A program made the position numbers and the translations under genes. The notes beneath the pieces were generated by a model, which searched no databases, was not told the origin of the DNA, and saw nothing but the letters and a program-made list of their open reading frames with translations. Below are positions 17,065 through 44,686 of a stretch of 64,000 nt of DNA, piece after piece. Numbering within the stretch: position 1 is the stretch's first letter; each line of letters starts with the position of its first letter. Source of the stretch: Lenzites betulinus (taxonomy: Eukaryota; Basidiomycota; Agaricomycetes; Polyporales; Polyporaceae); NCBI GenBank assembly GCA_022264855.1, contig JABYQU010000017.1:310001-374000 (forward strand), written 5' to 3'.

Positions 17065-17073
17065 GAATCGGCT

Positions 17074-17077
<4 letters not shown>
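17065..17077 (+). repeat. LINE target-site duplication, copy next to poly(A) tail
   Basis: GAATCGGCTGCTC, repeated exactly at 45412-45424 beyond the 5' end of the LINE. Two further T residues also match but merge with the poly(T) tract, so the duplication is 13-15 bp. Confidence 0.9.
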
Positions 17078-17116
<39 letters not shown>

Positions 17117-17254
17117 GTGCTGGCAAAGTAGGTCCTTTCAGACCCAGTGAATGCCATTGCATGTTAAGCGGGCGACCCCGCAACACCAGGCGAGGGAAAT
17201 GCTGTGACGCACACCAAAGTCAGTGGTAGTGTGGGACTCCCTCTTGTCGCTGGC

Positions 17255-18827
17255 TTATCCAGCGGCCGCGGACGCGGTCAGAGGCCTACCCACTAAAACC
17301 CTCGCACCCTGTGTCCAATCTTCAGGTAGCCCTGCGCGGTCCTCCAGGACACGGTCCCACGTGTCCAGGACGACCCGCCGGCGCACCGCCGCCCGGCCAA
17401 AGCGCGGCGAGGTGAGTAGACAGTCCATGAGCAGTCGTTTATTTACCGCGGCATACCAAGCGTTAACAATCGCTGTCTTGGTACAGGGGAAAATCTCCCC
17501 TAGGGGGCCGCCAATCACCCGACAGTTCCGGAGGCGCCAGACAACAAAGGCCGACTCGGTGAGGAGGAGACGGGTGAGGCGCTGCTGGGCGGCGGAGAGG
17601 GCCGGGGGTGTCGACGTCAGCCGGAGGGCCGGTGCGCCCAGCACAAGCCCCACGGAGAGGCGCGGAAGCTCTATCCCCCCCCGCGCTAACACCGCTCGCG
17701 CCTCCTCCCACACAAAACGCTGGCCCGGCTCCTCACATTCTAGCAGGATGTGTTCTATGGTGTCTGGTTGGCTACAGTGAGGGCATTGCGCACGGTGCTC
17801 ATACTGCGGTATGTGCTCCCAGTACGTGCCGACGCGGTGGGCGTCATGCAACGCTTTCCACCAGAAGTCACGCATCCCCCGCCGGAACTCAGGCTTCCGG
17901 ATGGCCCGCCATAGTGCGGGGATGGTCGGGTGGCAGTCCCATTCTCGCAGGGCCGCCAACACCCGTTCTGTCATGACCACGGTACGTCGTCTTTCTGGTA
18001 CGATCGCACGCTCCCGGATCGCGCGATACGCCAGGCGCTGTGTGAGGGTAGGGAGACGGACGCCGTCAGCAACGTAGGCGAGTGGTGGTGGCGGGAGGCG
18101 CGGCCCACGGTCCACGGTCAGCACCGCGCCTCTCGCGGCCAGCATGTCCGCCCCTTCGTTTCCTTGTACGCCAGAGTGGCCCTTGACCCATGCAAACGTT
18201 GTACGGGCCGAGCGCGCGCGTAGCCTGGCGGCCACGTCTCGGACGAGGTCGGCATTGGCCACCCCGACCCAGCCGCGGTCTTCCCATACGCGGAGGTGCT
18301 TAGTGAATCCATGTACGACTAGCAGTGAGTCAGATACCACATTCAGGCGGGCGAAGGGGGGGGTTGCATCGACCGCAAGGGCCACAGCGTAGAGCTCTGC
18401 GCGCTGATTCGTGGCCACCTCACCAGGCACACGGGCAGCGATGTTTCGCGGGTCGCCCGCCCCGTACCACACACCAGCCCCCGCGGTCGCCGTTGTTCCA
18501 CCATTCGCGGCGCAGCTGCCGTCCGTGTAGACCATTACTTCCTCAGGGGGAACCTCGAATGGGCGCGGCGGGGCGCGGAGAGGGGGCCGGCGGTCATGAG
18601 GCTGCGACCCAAACACCCGGAAGCCGTCATGGACAGAGGCGCCCGAGCGGATGCTGGGGTCGAAGATATACGCTCCGGCTTCATCAGTGTCCGGCTCGTG
18701 CCAAACATGCCGGGTGCGGCGGTGCGGGGACAGCCCATCCTCGTTGGTCGGGGCATGTGGGTTCCATAGCGGTGCGAGACGGGCGAGGGCGCGCGCTGCC
18801 GCCGTAACACAACGATGGGGGTTTTCA
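17255..18827 (-). CDS. LINE ORF2, 3' part: RNase H and C-terminal zinc motif (separated by KDZ insertion)
   Basis: This is the C-terminal third of the LINE polyprotein. It holds a type I RNase H domain with the acidic residues in MVYTDGSC, NQRAELYAV, VVSDSLLVV and the KGHSGVQGNEGAD block. A CCHC-type motif (CPHCSQPDTIEHILLEC) and a basic tail follow. It has no initiator of its own. Reading upstream across the 10-bp duplication at 18818-18827 joins it in frame to codon 1163 of the other part, which ends at 36520. Translation from this locus alone is unlikely, although the frame runs on into KDZ terminal sequence to about 18853. Confidence 0.85.
18818..18827 (+). repeat. KDZ target-site duplication, left copy
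   Basis: GGGGTTTTCA, identical to 36520-36529, directly abutting the KDZ element. The Zisupton branch is reported to make 8-bp duplications, so two of the ten bases could match by chance. Confidence 0.88.
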
Positions 18828-18860
18828 GGGACCTCTCTTAGTTTGATAATCAACTCACAT
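18828..18860 (+). repeat. Left terminal inverted repeat region of KDZ element
   Basis: Starts GGGACCTCTC and contains TTTGATAATCAACT. Its partner is the reverse complement of about 36487-36519, which reads ACACCCTG and then TTTGATAATCTACT. The match is imperfect outside the 10-bp core. Confidence 0.65.
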
Positions 18861-19140
18861 TAGTTGATGCCGAACAAGTGTTAACGTGATCACTGTGTGA
18901 TTAAGTATAATGTTTTCATTGCGTTGTGGAAGTGCTGAATACCCATTGAAAGGACTTAATTATTCGATTAGCAAACGTTGATTGAACGCTGAACGAATGA
19001 TCATCATTGTGCCATCGGGTGTTAAGCAATACATTTGAACATTTTTTGTGCTAGCGGCAATACATGACAGGTTCCAGTTCTGTATGTGAAGCAGGTCGCG
19101 TAGCGATGTACCCCGGGCCCATCCTGCAGTCCGAGTGAGT

Positions 19141-20262
19141 AGCAAATGAGTCCCGCGAGGGCACGCGGGCACAGTGGACGCAGGAGCGCGCGCGCAGAGC
19201 ACGCAGGAGCGCGGGGCTACCCTTGCGTCGTTCCCTACGCCCTCGCCCCCTTGTTGCACACGACGGCGCGCGACACTTGCGCGCGGCACTTACGCGCGGT
19301 GCGGTTTTCGCGGCTCGGGGCGGGCGGGCGCGGGCACGGTCAAGATGGCGGCGGGGCGGGCGGGGCGCGGTGGACGACGACGCGCAGCGCGGTGGATGAT
19401 GGCGCGCGGCGCGGTTTTTGCGGCTCGGGGGTGCGGGCGCGGGCACGGTCAGGATGGCGGCGGAGCGCGGTGAACGACGACGACGCGCAGCGCGGTTAAT
19501 GAGCGGTTTTCGCGGCTCGCGGGTGTGGACGCGGGCGCGGTGGACGACGCGGGGCTGCGAGCGCGGTGGACGACGCGGGGCTGCGAGCGCTCGGTCGAGG
19601 CTGGCGCACGGGCACGGTCGAGATGGCGGCGGGGCGCGGTGGACGACGACGCGCAGCGCGGTGGATGATGGCGCGCGGCGCGGTTTTCGCGGCTCGGGGG
19701 TGCGGGTGCGGGCACGGTCAGGATGGCGGCGGAGCGCGGTGAACGACGACGACGCGCAGCGCGGTTAATGAGCGGTTTTCGCGGCTCGCGGGTGTGGACG
19801 CGGGCGCGGTGGACGACGCGGGGCTGCGAGCGCTCGGTGGAGGCTGGCGCACGGGCACGGTCGAGATGGCGGCGGGGCGCGGTGGACGACGACGCGCAGC
19901 GCGGTGGATGATGGCGCGCGGCGCGGTTTTCGCGGCTCGGGGGTGCGGGCGCGGGCACGGTCAGGATGGCGGCGGGGCGCGGTGGACGAGGTGCACGACG
20001 GCGCGCGGCGCGGTGGATGATGGCGCGCGGCGCGGTTTTCGCGGCTCGGGGGTGCGGGCGCGGGCACGGTCAGGATGGCGGCGGGGCGCGGTGGACGAGG
20101 TGGACGACGGCGCGCGGCGGCACGGTGGAACAGGACACGCGGCGCGGTAGACGATGGCGCTCCGTTGTCGAAGCCGGCACGTCGCGGCGCGGTGGACGCC
20201 GGCGCGCCGCGCGGTTTTCGTGGCTCCGGGCGCTGGACGATGCCGCGCGGGCACGGTCGACG
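19141..20262. repeat. GC-rich tandem repeat (minisatellite) near left end of KDZ element
   Basis: The segment beginning GCGGTTTTCGCGGCTCG recurs at about 19411, 19502, 19681, 19772, 19924, 20034 and 20213. The clearest higher-order unit is about 270 bp (19411 to 19681); the next copy is 243 bp because a 27-bp sub-repeat (GCGGTGGACGACGCGGGGCT and so on) is present once instead of twice. It is extremely CG-rich with many CpG dinucleotides. Long frames on both strands are artefacts of the composition. Confidence 0.8.
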
Positions 20263-20680
20263 ATAGCGGGGGGGGGCCGTGGTGGAAAACGGCGCGTCGC
20301 GGCACTGTGACAGACATCCGACGACGCGCGGCGCAGTGCACGACGAGGCGTCGAACCGCGGGCCCATTCGTCGAGATTGAGCACGGTGCGCCGCGCGTCG
20401 TCTCGCGGGATATCGATGTCCGTCAGTGCCGGGCAGCCAACGAACGGCGTAAGACCTCGGGCGTGCGTTGCTGGCTATAGGCCGCTAATACACCTGGTGT
20501 ATCCCACAAAAAAAATTAGTGTATGAGCAGCGATACAGTACAACGCCCTGCGCACCCTACATCCGTCGCGGGCGCTTAACCGTGTTTCGTCTCCTGGTTG
20601 TTCGCACTCGCCTTCCTCGCGCATTCCCAAGTCCCTCTCAATCATTGAAACTTACTCCATTTTGCTGCTTTTCATCTGCC

Positions 20681-21005
20681 ATGGGTTGGCTCACTCCCCC
20701 CCTAGCCTCTGCTGGTGAGAATGTGGTCAGGGTGCCGCAGAAGGAGGTCCCTCGGTGCTGCGCTAGTAAGTGCTCGATTGTGACCGCTTACAAGCACTTT
20801 TTGGCTCACCTGGACTGTAGGTGCGGTTACAACGACGGCCGTCGGGCATCCCGCCGTCAGGGATGAAGCCCAGGCCCACGCGGGCTCTTCAACAGAGCTG
20901 TCTTCGGGGAAGGACGAAGTTAGGGTGCGCGGGAGGCTCGCGCGTGCCGCGCGCGGGGTGATTAAAGGGTTGGGACGCGCCCAACCGAAGGGAAGCTCTG
21001 TGTGA
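20681..21005 (+). CDS. Small KDZ passenger gene, 89 residues, unknown function
   Basis: Two exons, 20681-20765 and 20821-21005, separated by a 55-bp intron with GTAAGT donor and CTGTAG acceptor; phase is kept. The ATG is in a strong context (CTGCCATGGG) after a pyrimidine-rich leader. The protein starts MGWLTPPLASAGENVV and ends with an arginine-rich stretch (VRGRLARAARGVIKGLGRAQ). There is no signal peptide or known domain. It lies between the minisatellite and the 3' end of the transposase gene, convergent with it. Support is intron structure only, so a spurious model is possible. Confidence 0.45.
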
Positions 21006-21472
21006 TGAATAGTTGGTGAGTTTATTCGCTTACTGTGTGTCGTACTCGCGAGACTGAGGATTAGAACAGTGGGTAGAAGGCTTCGTATCATTGTGGTTTG
21101 TATACATAGCGCACCGTTCGATACATTTTCTTGGGCATCGCCGCTGTTGGCCGCGATCATCCGCGCTGGCCCTTCCAAATGATGCATCTACGTCAGGCGG
21201 TCCGTGGTCGCCTGCTATTCTGTGCCCAAAAACATCGGCGTTCAGCGCGACTTAAGCATCGGTGGCTGTGAAGACGCGGATCGGGCCGGAGATTTCTCGG
21301 CCTCCGATTTCGCTTCCGGTTTGGGCGGAGGCGTTGCGCACGTGCTGACGCCCGAGCGCTCGCTGGGCTGCACAAGTCGTTTCGTTCAGTCCGGTAGGCA
21401 CGCCAACGTCGTCTGTGTACACTCACTTTATGTCGGTATCGTGGGCTGGCTTTCAGTGTAGGCAAGCGTCCC

Positions 21473-24400
21473 TCACATTTTCCACTGAGCCAGAATCGGC
21501 TCGTAAGCCTCGATTCCATTCTCGCATATTTGTTCGAGGTAGGGTCGGACGCTCTAGCATGACTTGTCAATATATGTGCGCGGCCACCCCAGAGGACGCA
21601 GGTTGACTCACACGTGTCTGATCAAGCTGACCTGCGGGGACACCTGGTCGCCGTGCTTCGTGGTATGTTCGCTCGCACGTCTCAGCCATGGCCGACCACA
21701 TTGCGGCCGTCTTGAACGCGAAGGCTCGTTCGCCGCCCGCGCGTGCGCGCGCAGATGCGTCCCACATATCGGCGTACGCCTGATATCCCATAGCAGTGCG
21801 CCGAAATTCGGCGCAAATCCGGTTGACGGCTTCATCCGCGCGGTCCTTGTCTGCCTTTGCGCGGAACCATTGAACCTGATCGACGGCTGAAGTGACTTGG
21901 TTAGCACATACGCGCATTACTCAAAGCGCTAAGAGCTGGTTCACTGACCTGTCATTTCCGGCGTATTGTCTGCGGCGGCGGGGGCGGTTCTACGCGTGTT
22001 GGTAGATGCAACTGGTCCGTGAACCCCCCAGAGCCAAGAACCGGGGGTCTTACTGTCGTGCAGGGTTCTTACGGCAGCCACATTTGGGATACGCAGGTCC
22101 TTGTCTGGGTCGATTCGCTGAAGGCGTCTGCCGGGGGTAGCGTCGTGGGCTGCGTCGTACTCCAAGGGTTGCAGGCCGCAAATGCGGGCGAAGTTATGAT
22201 TGTACCTGTCGGCCAAGACTTGCGCTCGGAGATCGGCGCGGTTGATGTCTTGCTGCGCAAATGCATTGGCCTTGTGACCTCGCGCGTTTTTGCGTTTGTA
22301 CTCGATATGTGCCGCGCGATGCTTGATTGCCAGTCGTAAAGCGTCGAGCTGATCGAAGGCGAGCCCGATGCGGAGCTTCATCTCGATGTCTGCCAACGTG
22401 GTCAGCGCGAAGTCCTCCCGCTCGTCACGGTCATATTCAGATGGGAGACCTAGCCCGTCAGGACACGGCTCGTATTCTGGATCCTTTGCGTCCTCCTCGT
22501 CAAAGAAGCAATCGTCGATGTCATCGTACTCGTCTTCAGTCATTGCCATGTGTTTCAGCTGGGCTTTACGCCATTTCATAAACTTGTCGTGGAACGATTG
22601 CCAGGTGACATTGCTGCCGACCCCGTCCTCGACCACGATAAGGTTGCGCGCACGACGATCGCGACCATACCGCAAGTGCAATCTATTTACAGTGCTCAAT
22701 GGTACATCCAATTCAGTCTGATACCGTCACTCACAACTGCTGTTCAAGATCTAGTCCTGTTTTGACGAAGATAGCACTCGATGTTCGCAGGGTTGTGCGC
22801 GCTCTCTGTTGATGAGTCTGGCGCGTGCTCCTTTTCGTACCGAGGATCTCTTGCAATGCTGTTTCAGCGTTGGGCACTGACACGCAAACAGCCATGATTA
22901 GTGGGGTTCGTTGGACAAAGAATGCAGGAGTGCGTACGTTGTGTGCGATCCCAAAGGTACACGCTCGCGGGATACCTCTTGATCTTGTCCAGGTAGGTGA
23001 GTGGTGTCGGAGCTTCGTCGTCGATAGGAAGCTCTAGCCATCCCGCTACATGCACAGGTCCAGCCAGGCCGGTGAGACTGGCGAGGTAACGCGTGGTTCT
23101 ACGCTGGGCGGTGTACGCTTCTTCTAGTTTGCGGCTGAGGAAGGTCGCTGGAGAAGGTTGGGACCAGTCAACAAATCGGTTCGTCCACTTACTAGGTGAG
23201 GCTTCTACCCATGTTTACAGTCTTGCGCCAATTCCAGTAGCTGAACAAAGAGTTCAGCGCATCGTGCCTAGCACCCGCTGTCATCTCGCGCGTGGACAGG
23301 CCAGCGATGTTCAACTCAGCCCAGGGAGTCTCGACTCCCTCTCCGTGCGTGAGGCCAAAGCCACGCGCGTAGCAGAACGCGTATACTACTTGGCACATTT
23401 CTTGGTGCGCGTGCATGTGGAGTTTGGGGAGGAGCATTTTGACGTCTTGCACCATCGAAACCAGGTGAGGGTGGGACTTTGCCATACGTTGGACTATGTG
23501 ACAAATATAACTGCATACCACGTCGTATGACATGCCCCGCTCGAGCAGTTCTGAAGTTCCTTGAAGTGCTCCCGCGAAGGCGTAATCGTTCTGGCCCCAT
23601 CTGGGATACTTGGTGCGTGAACACATGTTGAAAGATAAGACCCAAGAGGTGACTCACGTCTCGGTGGTGTGCAGGTCTATGGTGGCCCCTGGGCGAAATA
23701 GGACGTGATCGCACAGGAATGACATAACCCCGCTGCTGTCGACATATCGGAACTTTCCAGTGCGCTGAGCCCGTGGAATCTTGAATCCGGTGCATGTGAC
23801 GCCCTGCCAATGGACGTGAGCACGCTGCTTGGCGCGAGCAACATAACAGGTGTGACGTACGACGTCTCCGATGTTAGACGTTTCCTTAGCGGGCTTCACA
23901 TGAAATTTATGGTTAAGGAAATCGCGCATCTCGTCTGTTTCACGGACGAAATACGCTCGGCCCGTGGTGAGTGCGATATCGTTCTCGTCGCTCGGTTTCG
24001 TTTTCTTCTGCAAGCTGTAATTCCCGTCGCCACAGAAAATCATGCGATGTATGTACCTGTGGAAATATTAACGACATGGAAGCAGGTTAGGGTGATTATG
24101 CGAACCGCAGCTCCTCGGGGATGTCCTTCCAATCTTCAGGTAGGTTGAAGTGCGGTATCGGGCATGTGAAACATGGGACGCTGAGGTCATCGGGATCCCG
24201 ACCTGGGATCACGATACCATGTCTGCGGCCGGCCCGTTTTTCCGATATTAGAAATCGGTGGATGCGAGACGCGAGTAGGAAATCTCTGTAGCGGTCCTTC
24301 AGATGGGTCAGATCCAGTAATGGCGCGGAGTTCGTATAACTCACCTTGACTCGACCAGAGTCCTGGTCAGGCGGGCTGAGCTGCTCAAGGATGCGCACAA

Positions 24401-25352
24401 AGTCTTGAACACTGCGTTTGCTGATGTCGAAATCGAGGTGGAAGCGTTCTAAGACATCGCAGGTGAAAGCCGTCTCGGTCCGCTCAAGAGTGGCAGGGAA
24501 CAGGTCCGCGCGCACAAGTTGAGACATCTGATGAGGGCAACCCGCGCAGTGACAGTAATGGAGTTTGCAGGAGTGGACGCCATTGTCGTGGACGATGGTG
24601 AAGGTGACGGGCGTCGAGGTCGTGGGAATGTGCGCACAGGGTGATCCATGATGACCAAGATAGATTACGTACCCGAAGTCAGCTAGGTCGCGACGGTCGA
24701 AGAACTTGCCGTTCCAGTGGAATAACCAGTGGAAGGGGAGGTGTAGGTGCGCACGAACAGCGCAAGTCGCACAGGTGCTAGGCCGCCCCCGACACTCACG
24801 GCACTTTGTAGTAGCAGGGCGGTGGCAACCGGGGGTGGGACATGTCGTGGATATTTCGTCGTCGCTCTCTTTCCAAAAGATGTCTGACAGTAGTTGATCG
24901 AAGTGGGCCTCGAATTCGCTGACTCGTGCGGATGGTGTGCGCGGCTGTTTAGAGAACAGCTTCGTCAGCGGTGTCCCATACGACCACAGGTAGAGTTATA
25001 TCACCTTCGGTTTAGCCCCTACGCCACTGTGCTCATCTCGGTGATACGCAGAGGGTTTCTCGGAGGTCGATGGTTCGTCGTCGGAACATATGTCGCCAAG
25101 TTCGCAGTGGCTCGCCTCGTTAAACTCGAACAGAGATGTCGCGGCAGCGGAGGAGTCACCAGCTAGCGGGGATTCTTGAGGGTTCGGGCGTACGCGTTTG
25201 TTTGGCTGTTCGGCAAACTCTAACGAGCGTTCCAGGAGGTTGAGTTGCCCTCCCGGGGCTACGGCGTACTCCGAGTGTATCGTGCGCGCCTTCATGACAC
25301 CGCTGGTCCGTGCGGCGCCCTTGGGCATAGGCGCTCTTTTCTTAATCGGCAT
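21473..25352 (-). CDS. KDZ transposase with CxC2-type N-terminal domain, apparently intact
   Basis: Nine exons, right to left: 25005-25352, 24106-24944, 23658-24056, 23209-23600, 22938-23147, 22735-22876, 21949-22682, 21612-21886, 21473-21553, giving 1139 residues. All introns (49-62 bp) keep phase, and the only odd donor is GTTCGC at 24105. The N-terminal half holds the cysteine-rich CxC2 domain (CPTPGCHRPATTKCRECRG, CATCAVRAH, LHYCHCAGCPHQ). The RNase-H-fold transposase core follows, with likely catalytic acids in FCGDGNYSLQ, SYDVVCSY and THGEGVETPWAELN, and then the family motif ARHDALNSLFSYWNWRK. A long helical C-terminal region follows (EWEA-type heptads, GWLEL, TGLDLEQQL). The first exon is a basic, low-complexity tail, perhaps DNA binding or nuclear import. 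The start is the first ATG (MPIKKRAP). No stop or frameshift is seen, so the element may be active. Confidence 0.9.
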
Positions 25353-26176
25353 GTCGGATGTGAGAAGGGCAAGACCTTTGCGGCCAAGGCACGTCGACGT
25401 CCAAAGCGATTACTTGCTGGGAGAATCGCGAGGGGTGCTGAAAGGTTTTGCGCATTGATCAGAGTGGTGCACGGATGAATATCGTGGAATGTCATGACAT
25501 ACCAGGATATGAGTACTGGTAAATGCGAGCGCGACGGTGGAGCTATGTGGGAGGGCGCAGAGTATGAAAAGGTGGGGGAGGGGAGGTAATGGCGGGGCAG
25601 GAGGAGTAGAGACTGAGAGGGCCGTAGACTCTGAAACAAAGTGGCACCAGAGCGGCCTTCAGCGCCCAGGGCGCGACATGATGTTCCTCTTGGGTTTCGT
25701 CGCAGAAGCCAGCCGAGCTCGTTTCGCAGCTTGTCATCCTCTCGGCCTTCGTCGGGATGCTGCGCTCGGTGTTCGGTGCAAAGGCCTTCTGGGCTATTCG
25801 CAGTTTGTCATCGCTCGTGCTTCAGGGTTCAGCCGCGCAACATCGGCGTGCACCATGTGGGCTAATGGTTGTGTCTAGCGCCATCTGCTCCGCATGTCGG
25901 GGCCGTGCGGCAAAGTGTGTCCGATCACACAGAGCATCGTTCCTTCGTCGGTGGAGAAATGGGGAGGCGCAGGGCACGCATGCTTTCAACCGGTCTTGTG
26001 ACAACCAGAGTCACATTTGAGCATGGTGCACAGCGTTGTGGTCGTCAGGTTCCACCGCCACCATATGGAAGATTCCGGGAAGTTATGTCCGGGCGTCGAT
26101 CTCGTCCGGTATCTCGGTGGGGGCACGCAATTGAGCCATTGATTCGGTAGATACCCTATCTATTATGCGCGTGTCG
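25353..26176. other. KDZ internal spacer, transposase upstream region
   Basis: This lies between the transposase start and the stop of the 427-residue gene, both on the minus strand. It probably carries the transposase promoter. No gene seen. Confidence 0.5.
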
Positions 26177-27572
26177 TCAGTCAGACAACTCGATCACATC
26201 CCAGGGCGAAGGCACCGCCTTCGCTTTCCCTTTCCCTTTCCAGCCCCCGGCCCCCATCTTCGGGACGGAGACAATACCCGAAACGGAACTAGAAGAACCT
26301 TCACCTAGATCGCTGCGCGCAGCAGTATCGTTGACTTCGCTGTCCGTTGAGATACCCGATTGTCGGGCGCGCTTGGCAGGGGAAGGACGAGACGAAGACG
26401 AGGCGGACCGCTTGCGAACAGCGGAGGGACTAACCTCGTCCCCGTAAGGGTAACGGATGTCGTCAAAGAAGGATCGCAGAGAAGGTGAACTGGGGGGTGA
26501 GAAGGAAGCGAGGCGGACTGGGGAACTGCGACGATACTTGTAGCGCAATCGCGGTTTGGGCGAAGGTACCCGGACGGTAGGGAGGATCGGTCGGGTGTCA
26601 GGCCCTTCTGCGGGCGGAAGTAGCAGGGCAAGATACGCGTCTAAGTTCGGCGGGTTGGCTACCTCGAGCTCTCGATAGAGCACACGCTCTCCGGGGGCAA
26701 TGAATGTGGCCTGGTGAGACTTCGGATGCGCACTCCAGTTGCTCGCTGTTAGATGCCACTTTGCGTACTTCGGTTTGGGTCGATCAGAGGTCTTGATGTG
26801 CAGCGCGTCGAAGACAGCGGGTTGGCCAAAGGTGAACTCTACCACCTCGTCTCGGGGGGTGCCACTCGCGCGTATGACCATTGGGTTATGTTTGCCCTGA
26901 TGGGAAATGGTAATCAGGTATTGTACCGAAGGACAAACGTATCCCACGTACCGTAACGTAGGCATAAACGATGACCTCGCAAACACCGAGCGGAGGTCTG
27001 CCGAGCGGAGCGCTCGCCGAAGAGCTGCGGCTCGCGCGAGAAGAACCGCGGGATATGGCCGTGTTGCTGCTGCCAGGGGACGAAGCGAGGAGTTGTGATA
27101 GTATGCCCCCCGGCTGGCGTCTGCGCGGCGTTGGATTACGAGCTCCATCGACCGCGTGACCGTTGATCTCGTCTCTGATGTCCTCGCGTATAACAACGGC
27201 TTCAGCTCCTAGCATGGGATTGCCATGGGGTGGCGGGTGCAGGTCGGCGATGCGGGTCCATATCTTGAGGCGGGCACTGAGACAGCGGTCGGGGAGGAGC
27301 GGTTTCTTGTGGTATAGACACTTCGTGCTGGTACGGGCGCAGCACTGTAGGATAGGGTCAGAGGACGACCCTCGGCTCCAACAGCGCATGTTTGATCTTA
27401 CCACCTCAAAGACAAGTCCCGCATTAGCGTAAGTGCTTCCACCATAAGACACAATGGGGAGGTGCCCAGCACCTGAGACGCATTTGTGCAGTTCGGCACG
27501 CCAGGAGATATCGAGGAGAAGTAGCTCCTCGTCGACTATATCTTTGACGCGCGAGTCGGCGTCCCGAGCCAT
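26177..27572 (-). CDS. KDZ passenger gene, 427-residue protein of unknown function
   Basis: Exons right to left: 27402-27572, 26952-27344, 26177-26896; the introns are 57 and 55 bp and both are phase 0. The 57-bp intron (GTAAGA donor, CCTACAG acceptor) has no stop, so retention would add 19 residues. The start at 27572 is in CACCATGGC, with a TATATAAT box about 130 bp upstream (27711-27704). The N-terminal half has several Cys residues (CCARTSTKC) and a possible beta-rich domain (GGSTYANAGLVFEV; later EVVEFTFGQPAVFDALHI). The C-terminal 150 residues are Ser/Pro/Arg-rich with KKR-type clusters (SPAKRARQ) and end in a short acidic tail, WDVIELSD. I do not recognise the family; nuclear location is a guess from the basic clusters. 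Confidence 0.6.
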
Positions 27573-27703
27573 GGTGACCCAGGAGCGGAGAGCAGAGAGC
27601 GCGGGAGAGCGGCAGAAGAAGCGGGCTATAGGATGACCGGAGCGTGTACGGGGGCGGGGGGTCTCTGGCCGGAGCAGTAAGACCACGGGGGAAGAGCTCA
27701 ACG

Positions 27704-27711
27704 ATTATATA
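27704..27711 (-). promoter_or_regulatory. TATA box of the 427-residue KDZ passenger gene
   Basis: TATATAAT on the minus strand, within an AT alternating run and about 130 bp before the ATG at 27572. It stands out against the GC-rich surroundings. Confidence 0.5.
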
Positions 27712-30641
27712 CATATATATATTGTACCTGTACCATACTTTCGGGTCAGCAATCTTTCCAACGAACTGATAGCAATGAAATGGGGCGTCTTGCTTGCGTC
27801 GCTAATGCAGCAGCATACGTGAGGAGTTGCTCGTGCACATCTTCGTTGGAGGTAGATACTCTGCCTGCGGCTCACCTTGAAAACATAGATCATGCACTGA
27901 GAAACAAAGCCAAGGTTGTGACGTGCATCAATAACCTAGCCTGCGAGACTACCCGGGTGCCCGTGGCCACAACTTGAGTGGCGAGTCGCGACTGACCGCG
28001 GTATACAGAGGCGCGCCCGACAGTCACGGGGATGTCACATGTGACAGCCCAGCGACCTCAAGCGACACCGCGTGCTGCGCTGCTGCCAGTCAGCACCAGG
28101 ATACTTGCGCGCATTAGTCTCCTGGCACTTACTAGTTTTTCACACTCCCCACACGAGATAAAACTCGTAGCCCGTACCCAAGCGTGCAGCGTGACAGCGT
28201 CTCCCAACGCAAGGATTGCCGGTCCCCACAATAAAGCCGCCGATCCATGGTCGCACCCCAGATGGCAATTAGAACATCCTAGTTATCCGTTCCAGAGCAC
28301 CTCGACTACGGACACGAACTTGACCAAATCGCAACTAGTCCTCAAACTGTGATATTTGCCTACAAACCATGCTAATGGCGTAGACTTGAACCCACGCGCG
28401 GCAAATCATGTCATATGTCTCTTCGTGCGACCAGTGCTTTTCAGCCCAGATGCACGCTTGAGTCTTATCACACGGGCAGGACCACATACTGAAATCTGTT
28501 CATAACCAGATGATTAGGGATTAGTGTGTATTTCAAGCCTGCTAGTACCCAGCCACGCCAACACTCGAAAGATCGTGGGTTGGCAAGTCTCCTACGCTAT
28601 CGCCCGTGAAGCATTCGTGATCTGCCAGCGCGAACCGCGGTGACCAAGCAGGCTACCAGGATCATCAAGGTATCGTGCGAGTGACGCCCAGCAATGATAG
28701 AAATGTATATCGCTGCGTGCTCTAGGGAGACCACGCAGTACCTCCCAAGCGTGATGGACACCCACGAAGCTCCAGTCAGCCATCCTCCACCTATCTCTCT
28801 CCTGCAGCATTCCACGCGACCGCTGTATTGTCTGACTTCCAATGCTGGTGTGACCCCATATGGCGGTGAACTGATCAATGTGCAGTTTAACCTCCGTTAC
28901 ACAGCGCGGGCCTTCCCAATGTTCAGGGAACATGCGTGTCGGAGACCTGATGTACACAATCGGCTGTAGTCACACGTATGTTATCGGGCGGCGCCAGAAC
29001 CGGTCAAGAAGTGAAAGTTTCAAGCCAAGCGATTGAACGTGCAGCAGCGGCGATTGACGCAACAGCCATACAGCGCACCTCTCTCATTGCGATTCGTGGG
29101 GACAATAACATACCGGCAGTCGAAGGAGTAGGCTCGGCGGCTAGGGCCGGCCGACCTTGCATCGGTGCGCTGAAACCTCGGACGTCCTCCACACTATTGC
29201 TTCACATCGCCACCCCACGACCTCCGAGTGCATACATTATGAGTACCTCACAAACTGTAAGAGCCGTGCTCGCAGCGCGTCCACATGTATCTGCCACGCC
29301 CCAGGGTTCCGCCTGTACATAGCACTTGCCAGCCAAGACCCCGCCGGGTGTCCAAGTGCCAGGAGGTTCCGTCCATATATACAGCCTGCGTAAGACGGGG
29401 TGTGGCCTTATCAAAATTCTTTAACCCTCACATCTGGACCAAGCATACTCGACATGTCAACTAGAGCTCCCAAAGAGATGTAGCTTTGGAATGAGTACAG
29501 GTTGATAGCGACCACTCGCGGCCACGTGATCGTGTTTCGGCTTCCAGAGAGATGCGTGCAGTGAATTACTCAGGGTGCGATGCGACCGCAATGTCGCCCC
29601 ATCCCTTTTCGCGAGGGCCCATCCCAACCGTTCTCACCAGTTTGGTTGACAATCCATGGCCATAAGTCGGTATACAGGACGATTTGCGTCCATCAATGTC
29701 ATCGGAGGAGAGTATTCCTCAGTTGGCACAGACCCCGCGGCATTTGGCATTGAGCTCGCGCTTTAACAGCACAAGATTTAATCCCGAGGCATCACAGTAA
29801 ACAGATGATCACTGGTGGACACGAACGGACTTCCCTGCCTCGCGCGAACTGCGCCAGTGGACCATGCCACCTTACACCCATGTCGAATACCTACAATGAA
29901 CACGTAAAGACATGATATCGTCAGCCACACTAGTAAGCCTGCCACTGCTTGAGACATCCAAAAGCTGTCCCGCAAGGGAGTTCTTCAGGCGCGAATGATA
30001 CCATACAGCCAGGACTCTGATCATGCCTGCGCTACGCGCAGACAGGTTGCATCCCCTATAGGCCCGCGAGCACTAAGTGTGCAAAGGTCTGGGTGCTGTC
30101 CATAGCTCAGCCATATCGAGAACAGTGGCACTGCCACCGCGTGGCGAGGCCACTGTTCTGGTGAGATTTGGATCTCACGCCGTCCTCGTTGACCCGGCCG
30201 CCCGGTGTCAGTCTCTGATCAATCCGCCTGCTTGACTCTGACATAAACTTTCTACGAATCCTGCGCCGGACGCCCAAAAGCATGGTCCTGGCATTATCGT
30301 TGAAGAAATCCACTCTCCCTGGGGCAAATTGACGAGGGCGCGGCATGCGCCCAAGGCCAACGATGTTCGGTCGGGACAGGAGAACCGTGCCAGCGTTTGA
30401 GATACTCGCAAAAATATTACCTAACGGGACTAGCAGGTGGGTGAGCAAATCCATGGATAGCTAGGCTGAATAGTACGACGCGGGCAGTTCACTAGGGAAC
30501 CGTACAGGTGGAACCGGGCGCCGCCAGATCTGCGATTAACCTGATCGCCAGCTGAAACGAATGAGCTATGTACCTACCTCACGCGCACAAGGTCGGTCAG
30601 CGTAACCCTCCCTCTTGTGACTTCCCGCACTGCACGAAACA
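27712..30641. other. KDZ internal 2.9-kb stretch without a supported gene
   Basis: Open frames up to 121 codons occur on both strands but have no domain, codon bias or splice support. A perfect nested hairpin lies at 30119-30159. The stretch separates the minus-strand genes (transposase side) from the plus-strand genes, so it should hold the promoters of both groups. Confidence 0.5.
30119..30159. repeat. Perfect two-tier hairpin inside KDZ element
   Basis: An 11-bp stem (AGAACAGTGGC with GCCACTGTTCT) encloses a 3x3 internal loop, then a 5-bp stem (GCCAC with GTGGC) around the loop CGC. It spans 41 nt with no mismatch in either stem. Confidence 0.7.
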
Positions 30642-31640
30642 ATGCCCTCTGAGCGCACCGCCTTGCCCTACCCGCACGCGAACAGCGTGGGCGCAGACGA
30701 CGTCTGGAGGGACGTCGACACGAGCTCTCTCTCTCCTAGCGAAAACGAACATCTCCCGCCCAGTGATGATGACGTTGGGGAGCCAGATTGTGCGTTGCAT
30801 GACTTAGGCCTGACCTGCAATTACGAGAATCTTGCTGACACCGACTCGTACACAGCGCGGGACGGTTGGATCCCACCACCATTGGTCGAAGTGGACACCG
30901 AAGGGCGCGAGTGGGTTCCCGACCCGAACTACATCAACGACGCCCAGACGATGTATGGCGTGCGCAGCACGCTAGTGGTGGGGCGCGCTCACCTCTCCTT
31001 AGGCCACGAAGGGTGGCTGCCAGTCGAAGTCGGGAGCCACATCCCGCAACATTTCCTGCTTTTCGAGCGCCTGAAGGCTTCGGGGGACCATCTCTCACTT
31101 CAGGTATGTCCGACTCTATTGCAGTAACCCCTAAACAGCTAACCCTTTGAATAACAGATGTATCTACCCGCTACTCTCGACGCGGCCCGCGCCATGACTT
31201 TCGAGAGCTGGGAAGCAAAATTGGAGGATGCACGCATGTACTTCGACACCCTCATGGACTCCGAGCAACGCGATGCGATCAAGACGCTCGCATACGTTCA
31301 CCTCTGGTTTTCGACTGGCCAAGGGCGCGACGACAACGAGGCCAATACCACGCTTTGGCGCCAGCTGCAGCAAATCCTCGCTTTTTTGGCGTCGGTATGC
31401 CTCTTGCGTGCGACGCCCGCTGAGGAGCTCATCTCCAACATCCGAGCCTGGGCTCAGAAGGAGATTGAGGTGCGTGTATTGGTCACGACCAAAGTACTAG
31501 ACCTAGGAATGGCTTCTTACACGTCCGCACAGGATGGCCTGCCGATGTATCTGCGCAGCCCAGAGACTCGCGCAGAAGCCAATGGGGCGGGCAGGGTCTC
31601 ACCCGAGCCGCGCCTGTTGTCATGGGACGTTCCGGCTTGA
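30642..31640 (+). CDS. KDZ passenger gene, 293-residue protein of unknown function
   Basis: Exons 30642-31103, 31158-31469 and 31533-31640, with phase-0 introns of 54 and 63 bp (donors GTATGT and GTGCGT, acceptors AACAG and GCACAG). The second intron contains no stop, so retention would add 21 residues. The first third is acidic and Ser-rich (SPSENEHLPPSDDDVGEPD). The middle is rich in Trp and looks globular (GWIPPPLVEVDTEGREWVPD, HEGWLPVEVGSHIPQHFLLF). The last part is helical (FESWEAKLEDARMYFDTLM, LWRQLQQILAFLASV). No membrane anchor and no known domain are seen. It is followed 1.2 kb later, in the same direction, by the large passenger gene. Confidence 0.55.
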
Positions 31641-32844
31641 GTAGATCGTTTGTATTGCAACCCGCGTGATAACAAATCGTTTCGTGCTCGTGTGATTCCA
31701 CAAGCGCCATGGGAGCATTGCTCAATATGTTCGATTCGCTAGCCTCTGTGCCTGTCGACGCGCGGAGCACGCCCAACCGCACCTGATGAATCGCCGATCT
31801 GATCGTACCACTGCCGTTGAAAATACGGTGAGTGAAGTGATGTTCATCACTTCACTGATCTAATCTGACGCACTATCCTACCAATGGGCTTCTCATCGCC
31901 CGACGGGGTGGACCGTGCGTCACAGCCCACAGGATTTCGCGTTAACGGCCGCCTACATTCCGTGCGCGTCACTCGCTGGAACCGTTCAGCTGGCTGATTG
32001 TGGCACCGTCTACTAAACGCCGTTCTGACCCGCCCGGTTGATGGAACAATGAAGTGACACAAGGAGCCACGAAAGACGATTCCAAAGGACTCAACAGATT
32101 AACAGTTGCTGAAACAGGGCACTGCGATAACTCCGGCCTGTCTTTCCGAATGAACGTAAGTCCGGCCTTTCTTCCCGAATGAACGACACGTTGAGCCAGA
32201 ATCCCTAATGCTGGCACAGAACGATCAACGCACTTAAGCAAAATAGAACAATGACAAATGTCGTGCTGAACAGTTTCCGCCAAGACAGACCTTACTAGGA
32301 CGTGCCCGCGACGCAAGTTGCATTCAAATATAGCAGGCACGCCAATTGGCTCGCTCAACACATGCACATTCCGGCAGGTGAGCTTACCCATTGGAGATCA
32401 CACCATCGTTGATCACAAGTATTCCTACAACGCTTCTGTTTGTTTGTTCCGGTGGGCGGGCTCCCCCTCCCAACGAAATGATCGTCGATCACAGAATATG
32501 CGAGTGGAACAGCCGTAGTTCGCGTGCATCGGCCTGATTGAGCCCTAGGACTCGACGAGATCTTAGCTGCCCTGCTGAGGTGCACCGTCCAATACGTTTC
32601 AACGAGCTCGCTCGTGAGAATCAGACACAGAGCATCGCTGTACGTGCAAACAGAGTTATCGCAACCTCGCCTCACTCGCTGACACGAGATTACAGGGTCA
32701 CTGCGCCGCCACCCCCCCTCGCCTCCCCAAGTCCGAAAGGCCTTTCTCCCCCATCCCGGACTCACTCCCCTGCGGCATCCTCGCCACCAATCCCGCTCAA
32801 CGAGATCGCGCCCCCGCCTCCCTCTTACCAATACCCCGACAGTC
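31641..32844. other. KDZ internal spacer between two plus-strand passenger genes
   Basis: No supported gene. It contains a diverged direct repeat of about 25 bp (CGGCCT then CTTTCCGAATGAACG) near 32131 and 32160. The last 300 bp is the likely promoter and 5' UTR of the next gene. Confidence 0.5.
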
Positions 32845-35800
32845 ATGTCCGACGAGTCCCAGGGAGATTCTCCTTCCTATAACCCGGACCACGCCGAAGA
32901 CGAATCCAGCGACAGCTCTCACAACACGACGCCCACTCCAAGCGGCTCCGATCTCGAGTCGCAAGAGAACCAAACCCACCCAACGCGCCATGCACACTCG
33001 GCCTCTGCCAGACCTACCAAATCGCCCCGGGCCTTCGAAGACTCGTCTTCGGAAGAAAACGACGAGCACAAACGCCGCCGCCGCAAGGCTGGACGCCACA
33101 AGCCTCGCAAGAGCCGTGTGCCCGACGTGGACATCGAAGTGTTGGATTCGCAGCCTGTCTCGCACGACGGGAAGCCTCGCGGGGCGATTCGCGCTCGTCG
33201 TTTCGACTGGTCACATGGCCCCGGGCGTGACGCACGCTCGTACCTCGAAAGTCGTCTCGACGAGTGGGGCAGCGCCTCCACTGCCGCGACACGGCGGGCT
33301 ATAGCCACGGAGGCCGCCGAACATGTGGTGAATCATTACGTCTTCGACCACCACAACTCAGGCGATGTTCGCAAGGTGAGCAGCGCGTCTTTCTGGTGTT
33401 TACCCACATCAAATAACAACTTGGCACGTAGGCAGTGCGAGTGTGGTTTAGAAATGCCCAGCGTCGAGCGCCGCCCCTCATCGACCCAGCTCCAGCAGGG
33501 CCCGCCGGCAGTACTCGCGATGAGCTGCCTAGCCATGTAACGAGCCAGGTGGTGAAGGAGCTTCAAAATGTCATCAAGGGACGCCCCACGAGCGCGGCGG
33601 CACTGTGGGCGAAGGAGAACGACGCGGCTGTCAGAGGCATGATGGAGGGCACCGGCATCGGGGAACGCCAGCGCGCCATGAAGCAAGGCTTTGGAGCCCT
33701 CCCCGACTCTGAACAGCAGGCCTGGCGAGAGCGAGCCAAGGCCGAGGCCGCCCAGGCCGATGCAGATCCGAACAAGTGTTTCGAGTGAGTCCTGACAATA
33801 TTTGCGAACTCACAGGCGTGCTAACCAACGCCACAGCAATCAACGTATATTCACGCAACTTTTGGCAAAGGTGCTCGACCAGTTTCCGGGGTTCGGCCCC
33901 GAGAATTTCGGCTCGCTGGTGATATACACCCGCATCGCGATGCGAGATCGCGAGGGGATCGTGACTCGAGACGAGTGCGTACCATCCCAAGCTCAATACC
34001 CTAGCGCTGATGATGGTACCAGGCTCACAGTGGGTGCCTCCCCGGATGTCGAATGTCCATCATTCGCAGCCTTTGAGGGCGGCGCGCACCTTGCGGAGCG
34101 CGACCGATGGGAACGGTTCCTCAGCCAGGCACTACGTGCGTAACATCTCACCCGCTCTTGCGCATGCGCTCAACGCCATGGTAATAGCGAACAATCCCCT
34201 GCGCGGAGATCCCAGGCTGATTTGCATGGAAAACGGGAAACCCATGCTTCCCCAAGTCAACAATGCCTGGGTACGTGATGATGTTGTCGCAGTGTTGGAC
34301 TCGTATTTCCGACTGGTTTGGGGTATGTCGTCGTTTACTGTTTGGGCGTTTCATACGGTTACTCATCTGTCACAGCACAATCGAGATCGTCGGAGAAGCC
34401 CTTGAACTGGGACGACATCAACGCGGAACCGGAGCGGTATGTCAGTAGCCCGTGGCAAGATCTTGGCGCAACCAACCCCAATACCTATAACCTCCTCGAC
34501 CTGATCTTGTTGTATTCCAAACTGCTGCAAGCGCAACAAAGAGGCACCCCGTTCGAATTTCGCGCTGCAGACAACTCGGAGGAAGTGCTCGCCCCCCTGG
34601 ACGCTCCACGACTCACGTCAACAGCGGGAGAAAGGCAAGTCGAGCCATCGCCCGATCAGCACGAAGTACCTCGCCCCAAGGCAGTGCATCCAGATAGGCT
34701 TGGACGCTCACAGGCCATTCCGTTTCCCACCGCGCAGGGCATGGACATCGCCGGACCCTCCGGTACCTCAGCGCCGCATACTCCGACGATGCCGACACGC
34801 AGGGTGAAGGTCTTTCCCACCCCGCTACCACAGTCTGGCGGTTCAGCGCACACTGTGTACGAGACCCCCAGCCGAGCGAGGCACGCCCGGCCTCCTGCTG
34901 TACTCCCCGGTACCCTCTCACCCGCATCCTCTCTGTTTAACCCTGTGGGAAGTGCACTCGCCACGACACATCGCAACCTGTTTGCCGATGAGGACGACAT
35001 TGTAGATGCGCGCGGCCCGACGCAAACACGTGCCAGTGCGCAGATAGACTCGGGGAGGAGGGAGACAGTGCCTGTCATCCTGAGGTGAGAGCTACTACCC
35101 TAGGCCGGTGTTCGCACAGTGATCATACTGATGGGAGAGACAGTTCGACGACACAGGAAGAGCGCGGAATGGACAGCGGCAGCTCGAGGGACATGCCCGC
35201 ATCTACCGAGATGGCGGATGTAACTCCGAGGGCTGTGCATCCGCGACCGCGCAAGCGAGCCGCGCCCCCCTCAGCGAGCGCGGAGGATGCGGAGAGAACG
35301 TCGAGCGGGCTAAGCCCGCGGCGTGCTCTACATAGCGCGGACCCGGAACCGCAGCCACCGCCGGATATGCCAGAAGTCGATGGGCGCGGTGCGCACAAGA
35401 GCAACGGGGGGGGCAGCGATCATACGGCGATGGTTTCAGGTAAGATGACGTATATCGGGGTATGTATCACCTAACCAGTCATGTTTTACAGCGGCGACGA
35501 GGCCCGCGGGTTGGACGACGAGGACGAGCACGCGACGAGCGACGAGCCCAGAGACTGGAACGGGCGCGTCCGCAAACGGGCCAAAAGGCGCGGCCCACAG
35601 CTTACCATACCGGGCGTGAAGGGAAACACGGGCCGAACGGATGCACGTTCAGACGAGGAGAACGGCCTGGTCGTAGAGGTTGCCGGACGCGCGCGCGTCG
35701 GTACACGTACCCGGGTAGGAGGAAAGGCCGCCGACACGTCGCGAGGCTCACTCGAGCTAGAGGAGGACAAGGCGGAAGCACAAGAGGGAGACGCGTTGGA

Positions 35801-36027
35801 TGGAGTTCAGGGGCGCAAGCGCAAACGCGAGAGCAAGGCGGGCTCGAGCAAGGCGGGCTCCTCGCGGGTGCGTGAGAGGTAAGCATGCAATCATCCCAGA
35901 TGATATTGCTTGTGTGTGTCCGGCGTTGCTAACACATGTCATCGACAGCCTACCTACGACGATGAAGACACGATCTCATCGGGACAAACCCATGACGAGG
36001 ACACGCCGCGGCAAGGCGGGTGTGTAG
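32845..36027 (+). CDS. KDZ passenger gene, about 913-residue protein, possible frameshift at a G8 run
   Basis: Nine exons: 32845-33375, 33432-33784, 33837-33974, 34023-34135, 34188-34322, 34376-35084, 35144-35439, 35492-35878, 35949-36027. Introns are 48-70 bp and in phase except across exons 7 and 8, where the frames differ by one base. The eight-G run at 35406-35413 is the likely cause; one extra G would join both sides in frame. An alternative donor (GTATAT at 35450) would also restore phase with an intron of about 42 bp. The N-terminus is acidic and Ser-rich, then Lys/Arg-rich. Exon 2 has a stretch resembling an HMG box (SAAALWAKEND then LPDSEQQAWRERAK). The exons 4-5 region (DRWERFLSQAL, ENGKPMLPQ) looks globular. 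The C-terminal third is disordered and charged (GDEARGLDDEDE, RKRAKRR). No certain domain; chromatin or DNA association is a guess. Confidence 0.55.
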
Positions 36028-36294
36028 CGCGCAGCTGCCGTTTCGCGCCCGCCGTGTAGGGAGGGCGTCTCGCGTGCTGCGTCAAGGACGAGCTGCAGCG
36101 CTGCGCGAGCTATGCGCGTCGTGGCGTGATAAGTAGTGTGTGTGCTCGCGGGAGCAGACAAGTTTGAATACAGTGCAGTTACCCTGATTCGGAATGAACG
36201 GTTTCATCGTTCTGTACTGAACGTTTGTGTGGATCTGATGATCACCTTGCGCCAATTCGGGTGAATTCAGTTGGGAGTGCCTCAACATGATCAT

Positions 36295-36391
36295 GTGTTA
36301 ATCACGGCGATAATAAGATGTTCAATGCATATGAAATGTGTTAATCACGGCGATAATAAACTTCTGAATAGATGTTCAATGCATATCAAAT
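36295..36391 (+). repeat. Duplicated 42-bp subterminal block at right end of KDZ element
   Basis: GTGTTAATCACGGCGATAAT (36295 onward) followed by GATGTTCAATGCATATGAAA occurs twice. The second copy runs 36338-36391 and has an 11-bp insertion between the two halves and one G to C change. Subterminal repeats of this kind often bind transposase. Confidence 0.75.
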
Positions 36392-36486
36392 ATCACTCAA
36401 GATCAGGGAGTGAGAGGGAAGAACTACTTGATGATCTACATGTTAAACTGATATGAGGTGATTATGCAAGTCCCGCATTAAGTAAA

Positions 36487-36519
36487 GGGAAGTAGATTAT
36501 CAAAGTAAAAACAGGGTGT
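36487..36519 (-). repeat. Right terminal inverted repeat region of KDZ element
   Basis: The inverted partner of 18828-18860. The core GATTATCAAA is at 36495-36504 and ACAGGGTGT ends the element. Confidence 0.65.
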
Positions 36520-36529
36520 GGGGTTTTCA
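36520..36529 (+). repeat. KDZ target-site duplication, right copy
   Basis: GGGGTTTTCA, identical to 18818-18827. In the LINE reading frame it encodes the end of a CENP segment, and the following residue of the uninterrupted protein is found next to the left copy. Confidence 0.88.
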
Positions 36530-39500
36530 CAGCCAGCCAGCCGCCGGTCACCTTCGCACGCCGTGCACACACACCGCAGGTTGAGTATGTGCGGCGGGCC
36601 CCCAGCGTCGTTGGACTGGAGGCGCGCCACCACGCGCACGCAGTCCGCCACCGTTTTAACCAGGTGGCGCTCGCGCAGGCAGCGTCCCGCGGCGGAGTTC
36701 GCCGCAGCACGCCCACCGCGCATCCCTATGTGATACCATATGGGCAGTGCCAGTCGGAGGGCCTCGTCAGGTAGGAGCGGGGAAAGCGATGTGTTGAATC
36801 GCGTTGCCGTACTGATCATCGTGCGCAGGGGCGCCGGAAGTGGGCGCATCGGACGCACGCTGACGTCCCACTGCTGCAGGAATGGGTTGACGCGAACACT
36901 GCGTGCAACACGCTTGGACGCCAACGTCGGGGCCCCCGCAAACAGGGCGTCCGCAAGGAACGTCCACCGGGGGCGAGAACGTTGCAGGTTAAGGTAGGTT
37001 TTGATCCACATCAGATCAATTGCCCGGTTCCGCGCGCTGAGGTCAAGTAGAGCCACACCCCCATGGGTCACCGGCGCCATGAGCAGCTGCTGGGACACGA
37101 AATGGTGCCCTCCTTCCGTCCACATGAACTTCATTATCAGTTTTTGCAGCTCATCCTCGACCGCTTTAGGCATTCCTTGTGCCATAGTCAGGAACTGAGT
37201 TCTACTCCCCACCTCCATTCCGATTACTAACTTCTTCCCATAGAGCGTGGGTTTACGCCGTCCCCACCGGTCCAGGTTCCGGCGGATTGTATCGACAATC
37301 GCCCGCCACGCCGCGCATGGGTCCGCGGCGTTGCCCACACGGGCACCGAGGACTCGAATTGTGTCGCCGTCCGGGACGACGCGCACCTCAGGGGGGATTC
37401 TCAGGAGGCCTTCATAGACTTCATGCAGCCACACCATCGACGCCCGCCGCACAGGCCTCCCCAGGGGTAGTACCTCAGTCTTACCCGTGTTGAACTTCGC
37501 CCTGGCCGCATTACACCACTTTGTGAGTATGGCAGTCAACGTTTCATAGTCGTCATCCTTGCTGAGGAATACCGTTGTATCATCCGCATAGAGCGTTGTG
37601 ATGAGGCGCGCGGCGACGCCAGGCACTGAGATGCCGCGCAGCGGGGAGTCTCGGAGAGCAATGGCAAGTGGTTCAATCGCGAGGATGAATAGCAGGCACG
37701 ACATCGGGTCGCCCTGGCGGACCCCACGTACTATCTCATATGGCCGGCTCAGCGTGCCGTTCACCATGACCGCACTCGTCGCGGCGGCGTACATCGCACG
37801 TACTGTTCGGATGAAGCGCGCCGGGAAGTTCTGGTGCGCAAGAAGCTTCCACAGGTATCCGTGGTCGATCCTATCATAAGCCTTGTCTTGATCGAGGGCG
37901 ATCACCGCGCCGTCGATATCCTCCGCCTCCGCATACTCAAGCATGAGCGCGGTGAGTTTTATGTTATCAAAAATCCTTCGTCCCGGAAGGAAAGCGGCCT
38001 GGTCCGGGTGGACGAGGTTGCACGCCGGTGCCACAAGGCGCGCCGCTAGTACACGGGCGAGAAGTTTGTAATCAGCATTGAGGAGCGTAATCGGCCGATA
38101 GTTCACAATACAGCGAGTATCTCCTTTCAGTTTGTAGATAGGGCATACCCATCCGCACGCGAAATCAGTCCCTGCTGCAATACCATGGAGCTCGATATCA
38201 TTGAACACTCGCCGCAGCGTGCCCGCGACGTCGAAGAAGGTCTTCCCCGCTTTCCGGCCCGCACGGGCCCAGCGCAGATACAGCTTCCAGAGCTCTACCG
38301 GCAGGCCGTCCAGACCTGCGGACCGACCAGGTGCAGCTGCGTCCATCGCCTCCTCGACCTCGGTGTCGTCAATCGGCGCAGCCAGCGGTGCCTTGAGGGC
38401 GCTCGATAGTCTCCCCGGTACGCCGTCAAGGACGCTCGCGACGTCATCTTCATGTCGCCCGCGATCCGTTACTGGGTCCTGACGTTGTATTGAGTCATAG
38501 TGTGCCCGCGCAATATCGCACATCTCCCGCGTTGAGTTGGCGTACGTCCGGCGTCCATCGGGGCCCAGGGGACGCTCCATCTCGTAGAAAGTCCCGTCCT
38601 CAGGCGGTGGGGCGTTCACTCGTATCCAGTATTTGCCGATCCGCTCGCCGGCGACCCAATCCTTGGCAGCGCCCGCCAGTCGGCGGCCCCCGAAACGCTT
38701 AGCTTCGAGCCGCGCCAGCTGCTCGCGAGCATCCATAGCCGCGGCCAGATCTGGGCCAGCATTGCCCGCTGGGGGGGGCGGCGGGGCGGGTGCCGGGGCA
38801 GCCGGTACATCTGCACTGGTAGCACCGCTTGGCGGGGGGTGCGCCGCGGCACACGCGGACTGCAGCCTCGTCCTAAGCGTCGCAATTTTCCGGTCTTGCG
38901 CCGCCGCTTTCGTCTTGTGGCGTTCTCTGGCGGCGTTTCGCAGCTGCACCTTGAAAGCGGCGAAGAGCGTTTGGGGATTATGGGTCGGGGTCCGTTCGCG
39001 CAGATCATTGAGGTCGTTCTGGAGGCGCATTCCCAAGGAGCGCATGGTCCCGACAAAAGGGGGGTCGTCAAGGAGGCCAAGCGGGAGCGTCCAGCGTCCC
39101 CGCCCCACCTCCGGGGTCTGGTAGTTCGCCAAGGAGACGCTGGCCATTGAATGGTCTGTGACTACTCCCGCGGGGCCGATGGCCCAGTCAGCGGCCGCGT
39201 GCCGTAGGGCGCGGCTGATATACACCCGGTCCAGCCGCGACTGGCTACCGGAGGCCGCTTGGCAGTAGGTGTATTCGCGCGCGTCGGGGTGCGCCATCCG
39301 CCACGAGTCGGTCAGGCCCAAACGCTCGCGGAGAGTCGTGAAGGCCGCCACCGACACCGCCGGGTCAGGCCGGGACGGCATCCGATCAGCGGGGGACTCT
39401 ACGAAGTTGAAATCCCCGAGGCACACCATTGGGCGTATGTGTCGTTCGCTGAGTTCTCGGTCAACCGCGGCCCAGAAAGCCGCGTTGTCGCCCGGTCGGT

Positions 39501-40008
39501 TAGGCGCATACACGTTTAAAAGGGATAGGGTCCTGGTCGCAGTCCACGGGACTGTCAGTACCGCTGCCCGACCGGGGATGAGCTCACACATTACTGTCGG
39601 GGCGCCCGCCGTAGCGAGACACCGTTTGTTGGTGACAAATGCAACACCGCCTGCGCCGAGCGGGTTCACGGGGTCAGGGGACGCGTAAAACGCCAGTCGA
39701 TCTCCGAACAGTTCGTTGAGTGTTTTCAGACGACTTGGAGTAAGATGGGCTTCTTGTACGGCGAGTACCGCTAGGCGACGTTCTTTAACAAGCTGATTTA
39801 TTGTGAGCCACTTATCACTAGTCGGCCCACTTGTAGCTCTGCCGAAACCGTTCACGTTCAGAGTTGCCAGCCGGATTCTTGCCCTCCTCCGAGTTGTATT
39901 GCCGCAAGGCACACCAGGGGGGGCGGCTGCCGCCGGGACAGCCGCGGGGTCATCAGGGGGGTCCCCGGCAGCAGGGGGGCCCTCCCGTCGCCCGCGGCTT
40001 GTGCGCAA
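36520..40008 (-). CDS. LINE ORF2, 5' part: endonuclease and reverse transcriptase, cut by KDZ insertion
   Basis: The EEP endonuclease lies in about residues 45-310 (IRLATLNVNGFG, LAVQEAHL, CLGDFNFVE, SRLDRVYI, VTDHSMASV). The reverse transcriptase spans about residues 590-870, with ALDQDKAYDRIDH, QGDPMSCLLFILAIEPLA and the catalytic LYADDTTVF near residue 805. A cysteine motif (CVCTACEGDRRLAGC) follows and the LINE sequence ends at codon 1163. The present frame then reads 13 codons of KDZ sequence to a TAA at 36478. Joined to 18817-17255 the product is 1683 residues, in frame. The start is the ATG at 40008, although no conserved feature proves it. The 355-bp gap from ORF1 contains an eight-C run on the sense strand. 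Confidence 0.88.
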
Positions 40009-44617: not shown

Positions 44618-44686
44618 AGGTAGGTCAGCTTGGTTGCTCCCAGTGGCTGCTATTTAATAGGGGGGGGAACAGACTTTTGGCCATGC

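Follow-up and report, generated by a model that had tools for sequence, protein, structure and literature searches.

A 17.7-kb KDZ transposon nested in a LINE of Lenzites betulinus: ends, target duplication and accompanying genes

We analysed a 64,000-nucleotide stretch of DNA (the window; contig C18:310001-374000) from the 37.4-Mb, 108-contig genome of the wood-decay polypore Lenzites betulinus. The preferred reading, to which we give a probability of roughly 0.93, is that a LINE about 10.6 kb long first inserted in this genome and that a 17,695-bp KDZ DNA transposon (18826-36520) later entered its reverse-transcriptase/RNase H frame. The presence of a KDZ element in the LINE, as a single clean insertion, is confirmed. 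The features of the nested arrangement are as follows.

17078..45411, minus strand: host LINE, about 10.6 kb without the insert, split by the KDZ element
17065..17077, unstranded: target duplication of the LINE, GAATCGGCTGCTC, left copy
45412..45424, unstranded: target duplication of the LINE, GAATCGGCTGCTC, right copy
18826..36520, unstranded: KDZ DNA transposon, 17,695 bp, termini CAGGGACC...GGGTGTG, transposase on the minus strand; placed from the empty site and sister termini

The interrupted LINE and its empty paralogue

The host LINE carries endonuclease, reverse transcriptase and RNase H domains, with a poly(T) on the plus strand at its left (3′) end. The copies of its duplication GAATCGGCTGCTC lie 28 kb apart and comprise 15 identical bases if the following TT is counted; its 5′ limit, 45411, is the point where similarity to a paralogue also stops. 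Since it possesses its own duplication and poly(A) tract, we are dealing with one LINE split by one nested insertion.

The insert is bordered by GGGGTTTTCA at 18818-18827 and 36520-36529, the only two occurrences on the plus strand of the window, so that the exact 10-bp repeat described in an earlier note on this DNA is indeed there. Taking out the insert and one repeat restores a single open frame of 1753 codons running through CENPHRC, and the LINE pieces thus rejoin in frame as that note had claimed. The codon number 1163 given there for the junction was not recovered: if counting begins at the upstream stop, residue 1230 is the C of CENPHRC, so that the figure depends on the assumed start.

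An empty LINE site, which the note had suggested looking for elsewhere, was found in the same genome using the left junction as query. Contig C65 carries a LINE paralogue in which both pieces are contiguous around a single GGGGTTTTCA. At 99.4% identity, it aligns to window positions 17084-18827 plus 36520-45411; the 10,637 alignment columns include 57 mismatches and 3 gap openings, and the 600 bp around the junction contain 4 mismatches. Beyond the LINE stretch, the 18.5 kb of C65 that were compared gave no window match at E 1e-10, and this copy is therefore a paralogue elsewhere, not the other allele. Its frame is open over the junction within a 1165-codon stretch and shifted elsewhere; of the two copies of this long LINE, it is thus the interrupted one that keeps its joined frame open.

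As the LINE duplications enclose both pieces and the C65 site is uninterrupted, the LINE came first and the KDZ element second. Judged from sequence comparison, the element postdates the LINE that it entered. This LINE and its paralogue differ by only about 0.5%, a divergence that bounds the insertion relative to the LINE and not in years. The earlier description of the insertion as recent draws support from this small difference, whereas the identical duplication of 7-10 bp is weak evidence for it.

The transposase and three recurrent genes

Four genes are carried by the element, together with a tandem-repeat region:

19164..20160, unstranded: GC-rich tandem-repeat region (Tandem Repeats Finder), lying between the left end and the transposase
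21567..25352, minus strand: transposase gene, 8-exon model, 1122 aa, CxC2 and KDZ domains; model supported by Trametes homologues
26177..27572, minus strand: gene B, 2-exon model, 446 aa; deposited as hypothetical protein C2E23DRAFT_859409
30642..31640, plus strand: gene C, 2-exon model, 314 aa; no Pfam match
32845..36056, plus strand: gene D, with several exons; 924 aa in the deposited hypothetical protein C2E23DRAFT_885096

The eight exons of the transposase model contain no stop and read toward the left end. The spliced model matches the KDZ transposase domain PF18758 (147 bits for a cut-off of 26.6, E 6.4e-43) and the CxC2 cysteine cluster (5.4e-25); the earlier note was right in placing a KDZ element, complete at both ends, inside the LINE frame. 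Its best relatives are Trametes proteins, with 49-54% identity over 91-99% of the query. In an alignment of 25 proteins (that of the window and 24 of the 26 homologues found), D400, D549 and E613 are present in 96-100% of sequences and would be the catalytic residues.

At the DNA level, the element is single-copy in its own genome. Sister elements were nevertheless recovered by searching the genome for the left-end pattern CAGGGACCTNTNTTAGTTTG, with the reversed pattern as control. With up to two mismatches, nine matches were obtained (C14, C18, C33, C43, C54, C76, C81 and two on C22), all of them starting with CAGGGAC and situated past the 3′ side of a KDZ domain at a distance of 2.2-5.4 kb. 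No enrichment was seen when up to three mismatches were allowed (20 matches versus 36 for the reversed control), and the 11 three-mismatch matches are not counted as evidence. One of these, C34:126037, resembles a terminus; no KDZ match is listed on C34.

Gene B lies upstream of the transposase in the same orientation, while genes C and D are oriented opposite, toward the right end. Of the nine elements that have a CAGGGAC terminus, eight contain gene B, seven gene C and six gene D on the same contig (weakly on C33), this last count rising to eight if paired contigs are included. The element that terminates at C22:38158 has none of the three.

Genes B, C and D might be host passengers without a part in transposition. 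This would agree with the lack of any Pfam match above cut-off for the three of them, and with functions that are only predicted and structure predictions that are poor. Several observations go against it. The three genes recur in sister elements in which amino-acid identity over the codons compared has fallen to 36-50%, and in all four genes it is the third codon positions that differ most between the window element and the C43 element (994 codons compared for the transposase, 425 for B, 154 for C and 427 for D). All four genes are also present, identically ordered, in the C43 element. Finally, 11 of the 12 places where gene B occurs are in elements of the lineage or in contig ends paired with them. 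We therefore hold the passenger explanation to be unlikely: since most sister elements have them too, genes B, C and D resemble constituent genes more than a random cargo, the earlier note having spoken of cargo. The twelfth place, C76:433433-437023, has gene B- and gene D-like matches with no KDZ match listed nearby, and is perhaps a decayed or transposase-less relative.

Within gene D, a three-helix segment (about 120-190) is confidently predicted and includes a VWFRN motif, which we take to resemble a homeodomain recognition helix; a weak HMG-box-like segment follows at 228-289. These features are hints rather than an assignment, and suggest that gene D possibly encodes a DNA-binding or DNA-bending protein.

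Element ends and target duplication

The insertion can be parsed with a 10-bp duplication, as in the earlier note (element 18828-36519), or with a 7-bp one. Both parses predict the identical empty site, so that the repeat and the empty site alone cannot fix the ends and sister elements must settle them. The 7-bp parse gives the following features.

18819..18825, unstranded: target duplication GGGTTTT, left copy (from sister elements)
36521..36527, unstranded: target duplication GGGTTTT, right copy (from sister elements)
18826..18870, plus strand: terminus on the 3′ side of the transposase, imperfect inverted repeat of the other end
36476..36520, minus strand: other terminus (CACACCCTGTTTTTACTTTGATAATC read inward)

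The start shared by the nine close sister termini lies two bases further out on the left than 18828, and sister sequences diverge right outside CCCTG. In the 18,711-bp C43 element (1087442-1106152), the duplication TGAGGGA, through which the opposite end was located, is followed by CACAGG. A right-end pattern built from this C43 end was found at ten places with up to three mismatches, compared to three for the control. With ends at 18826 and 36520, 20 of the first 30 bases of the two termini match in register, and the same value was obtained for the C43 element; it was reached by none of 5000 shuffles.

Both ends are on one contig for five elements, and a 7-bp duplication is seen in three of them: the window element, C43 and C22:83780-115387 (GAGGGAA). 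For C54 (807080-825053) and C81 (35212-57639) both ends were found with no duplication, and some copies have therefore been recombined or mis-assembled. Three further pairs of ends, located on different contigs, share a 7-mer: C76/C16 (ACGCGTG), C33/C2 (ACGGAAA) and C14/C43 start (TCATATA). These pairs were matched by the shared 7-mer itself; by our own arithmetic, the unpartnered ends could be combined in about 30 ways, and the probability of one chance match among these is well under 1%. Genes B and C have identical scores on C33, C2, C14 and the start of C43, which is what an overlap of these contig ends inside close copies would produce. Altogether, both ends were located for eight elements, and six of these (three being cross-contig pairs) are compatible with CA...TG termini flanked by a 7-bp duplication. 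The duplication is exactly 7 bp in four of the six (C43, C33/C2, C14/C43 start and C22), 8 bp in C76/C16 and 10 bp in the window element. The 8-bp duplication of the KDZ types Dileera (Puccinia) and KDZ1 (Cryptococcus) is thus not matched by the lineage.

The 10-bp parse fits the ten bases identical on both sides as well as the empty site, and the window element by itself does show a 10-bp repeat, the 7-bp reading depending on relatives. We nonetheless judge it very improbable in view of the nine sister termini and the four exact 7-bp duplications. In addition, GGGTTTT is preceded in the target by G and followed by CA, which are the last and first bases of the element itself, so the repeat is explained as 7 bp plus three chance matches; by our arithmetic, about 5% of insertions would show at least three extra matching bases by coincidence. 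On this sequence evidence, the element is best read as 18826-36520 with CA...TG ends and a 7-bp duplication. Aligning copy ends, which the earlier note had proposed, hence supports CA...TG termini while shifting its coordinates by a few bases and replacing its 10-bp duplication.

The element at C22:83780-115387 is a 31.6-kb sister with a second KDZ match (C22:98344-99131) between its transposase and gene B, and may contain a nested element. Contigs C2, C14, C16, C17, C21, C33, C43 (at its start), C52 and C76 appear to end inside family elements, as judged from the termini and genes located close to where these contigs stop; the family is probably what breaks the assembly, and would explain several contig breaks. 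Although assembly is evidently hard in such regions, an assembly chimaera has a negligible chance of accounting for the arrangement in the window, as it would not give a duplication at family-typical ends inside a LINE with matched 13-bp duplications (17065, 45412).

Known KDZ elements and a proposed mechanism

In the available part of Kojima 2025 (PMC12730594), Kyakuja-1_LB and Kyakuja-2_LB of Laccaria bicolor are described with 7-bp target duplications and 5′-CA..TG-3′ termini; the Laccaria Kyakuja families are there said to have no terminal inverted repeats and to carry a TET/JBP gene, and Kyakuja with TET genes are also reported from Polyporales. The lineage of the window element shares with them the KDZ transposase, the 7-bp duplication and the CA..TG termini (six of eight elements), but the window element differs by its imperfect terminal inverted repeats and its three other genes. 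A search for TET/JBP gave no PF12851 match in the genome, control genomes being equally silent. From its sequence, we file the element as a KDZ with Kyakuja-like ends and not as Kyakuja, because the reported absence of inverted repeats does not apply to it.

The Cryptococcus neoformans elements KDZ1, KDZ2 and KDZ3, caught inserting with target duplications, are about 9-11 kb long with inverted repeats of 139-241 bp and 4-8-bp duplications, according to the portion of PMC12810828 available. They have in common with the window element a KDZ transposase and a zinc-chelating cysteine cluster, but the latter is of the CxC1 type, in contrast to the CxC2, the 17,695-bp length and the weak inverted repeats observed here. 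Excerpts of two other reports describe many KDZ copies in Pleurotus ostreatus, intact ones being preceded by a CxC2 cluster (PMC7641404), and in Marasmius oreades, where they are bounded by their target duplications and terminal motifs have been surveyed (PMC8290104). The earlier note had considered such clean proof of both ends to be rare; the proof is good, but KDZ ends and duplications are already published (PMC12730594, PMC12810828, and a survey of terminal motifs cited in PMC8290104).

A second KDZ lineage of about 10-10.8 kb occurs in the same genome (C1, C63 and C18:429209-439987). Like the window element it has a KDZ domain and CA...TG termini; unlike it, it displays good inverted repeats, beginning CACCTGATCATCACA / CACCTGAT and reaching a length of about 600 bp in the copy on C18, together with target duplications of 8 bp (GCAAGGGA, GCGTCGTG, GGAGACAG). 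The C63 and C18 copies gave no tblastn match (E 1e-3) to the window transposase or genes B-D.

A DDE cut-and-paste transposon is expected from KDZ membership and the target duplication. In the mechanism we propose, the putative DDE transposase would recognise the element ends, perhaps via its CxC2 cysteine cluster and a shared TTAGTTTG-like subterminal sequence, and would make staggered cuts, 7 bp apart, in the target. Genes B and C, along with gene D, whose product may bind or bend DNA, would serve transposition or upkeep of the element. More tentatively, and with the odds rather against it, the elements of roughly 17.5-18.7 kb could form a distinct KDZ lineage with a multi-protein machinery, made of the transposase and three conserved element-borne proteins, in which a homeodomain/HMG-like architectural factor would join widely spaced ends with weak inverted repeats.

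The window element is a well-documented further member of the known KDZ group, and the proof of its ends is good without being unprecedented. For a large KDZ lineage in a polypore, it provides ends that have been cross-checked and a duplication of 7 bp, and it illustrates that a single empty site can mislead on transposon ends by a few bases. Its interest lies in the three-gene module with a putative role, which makes it a four-gene unit open to testing.
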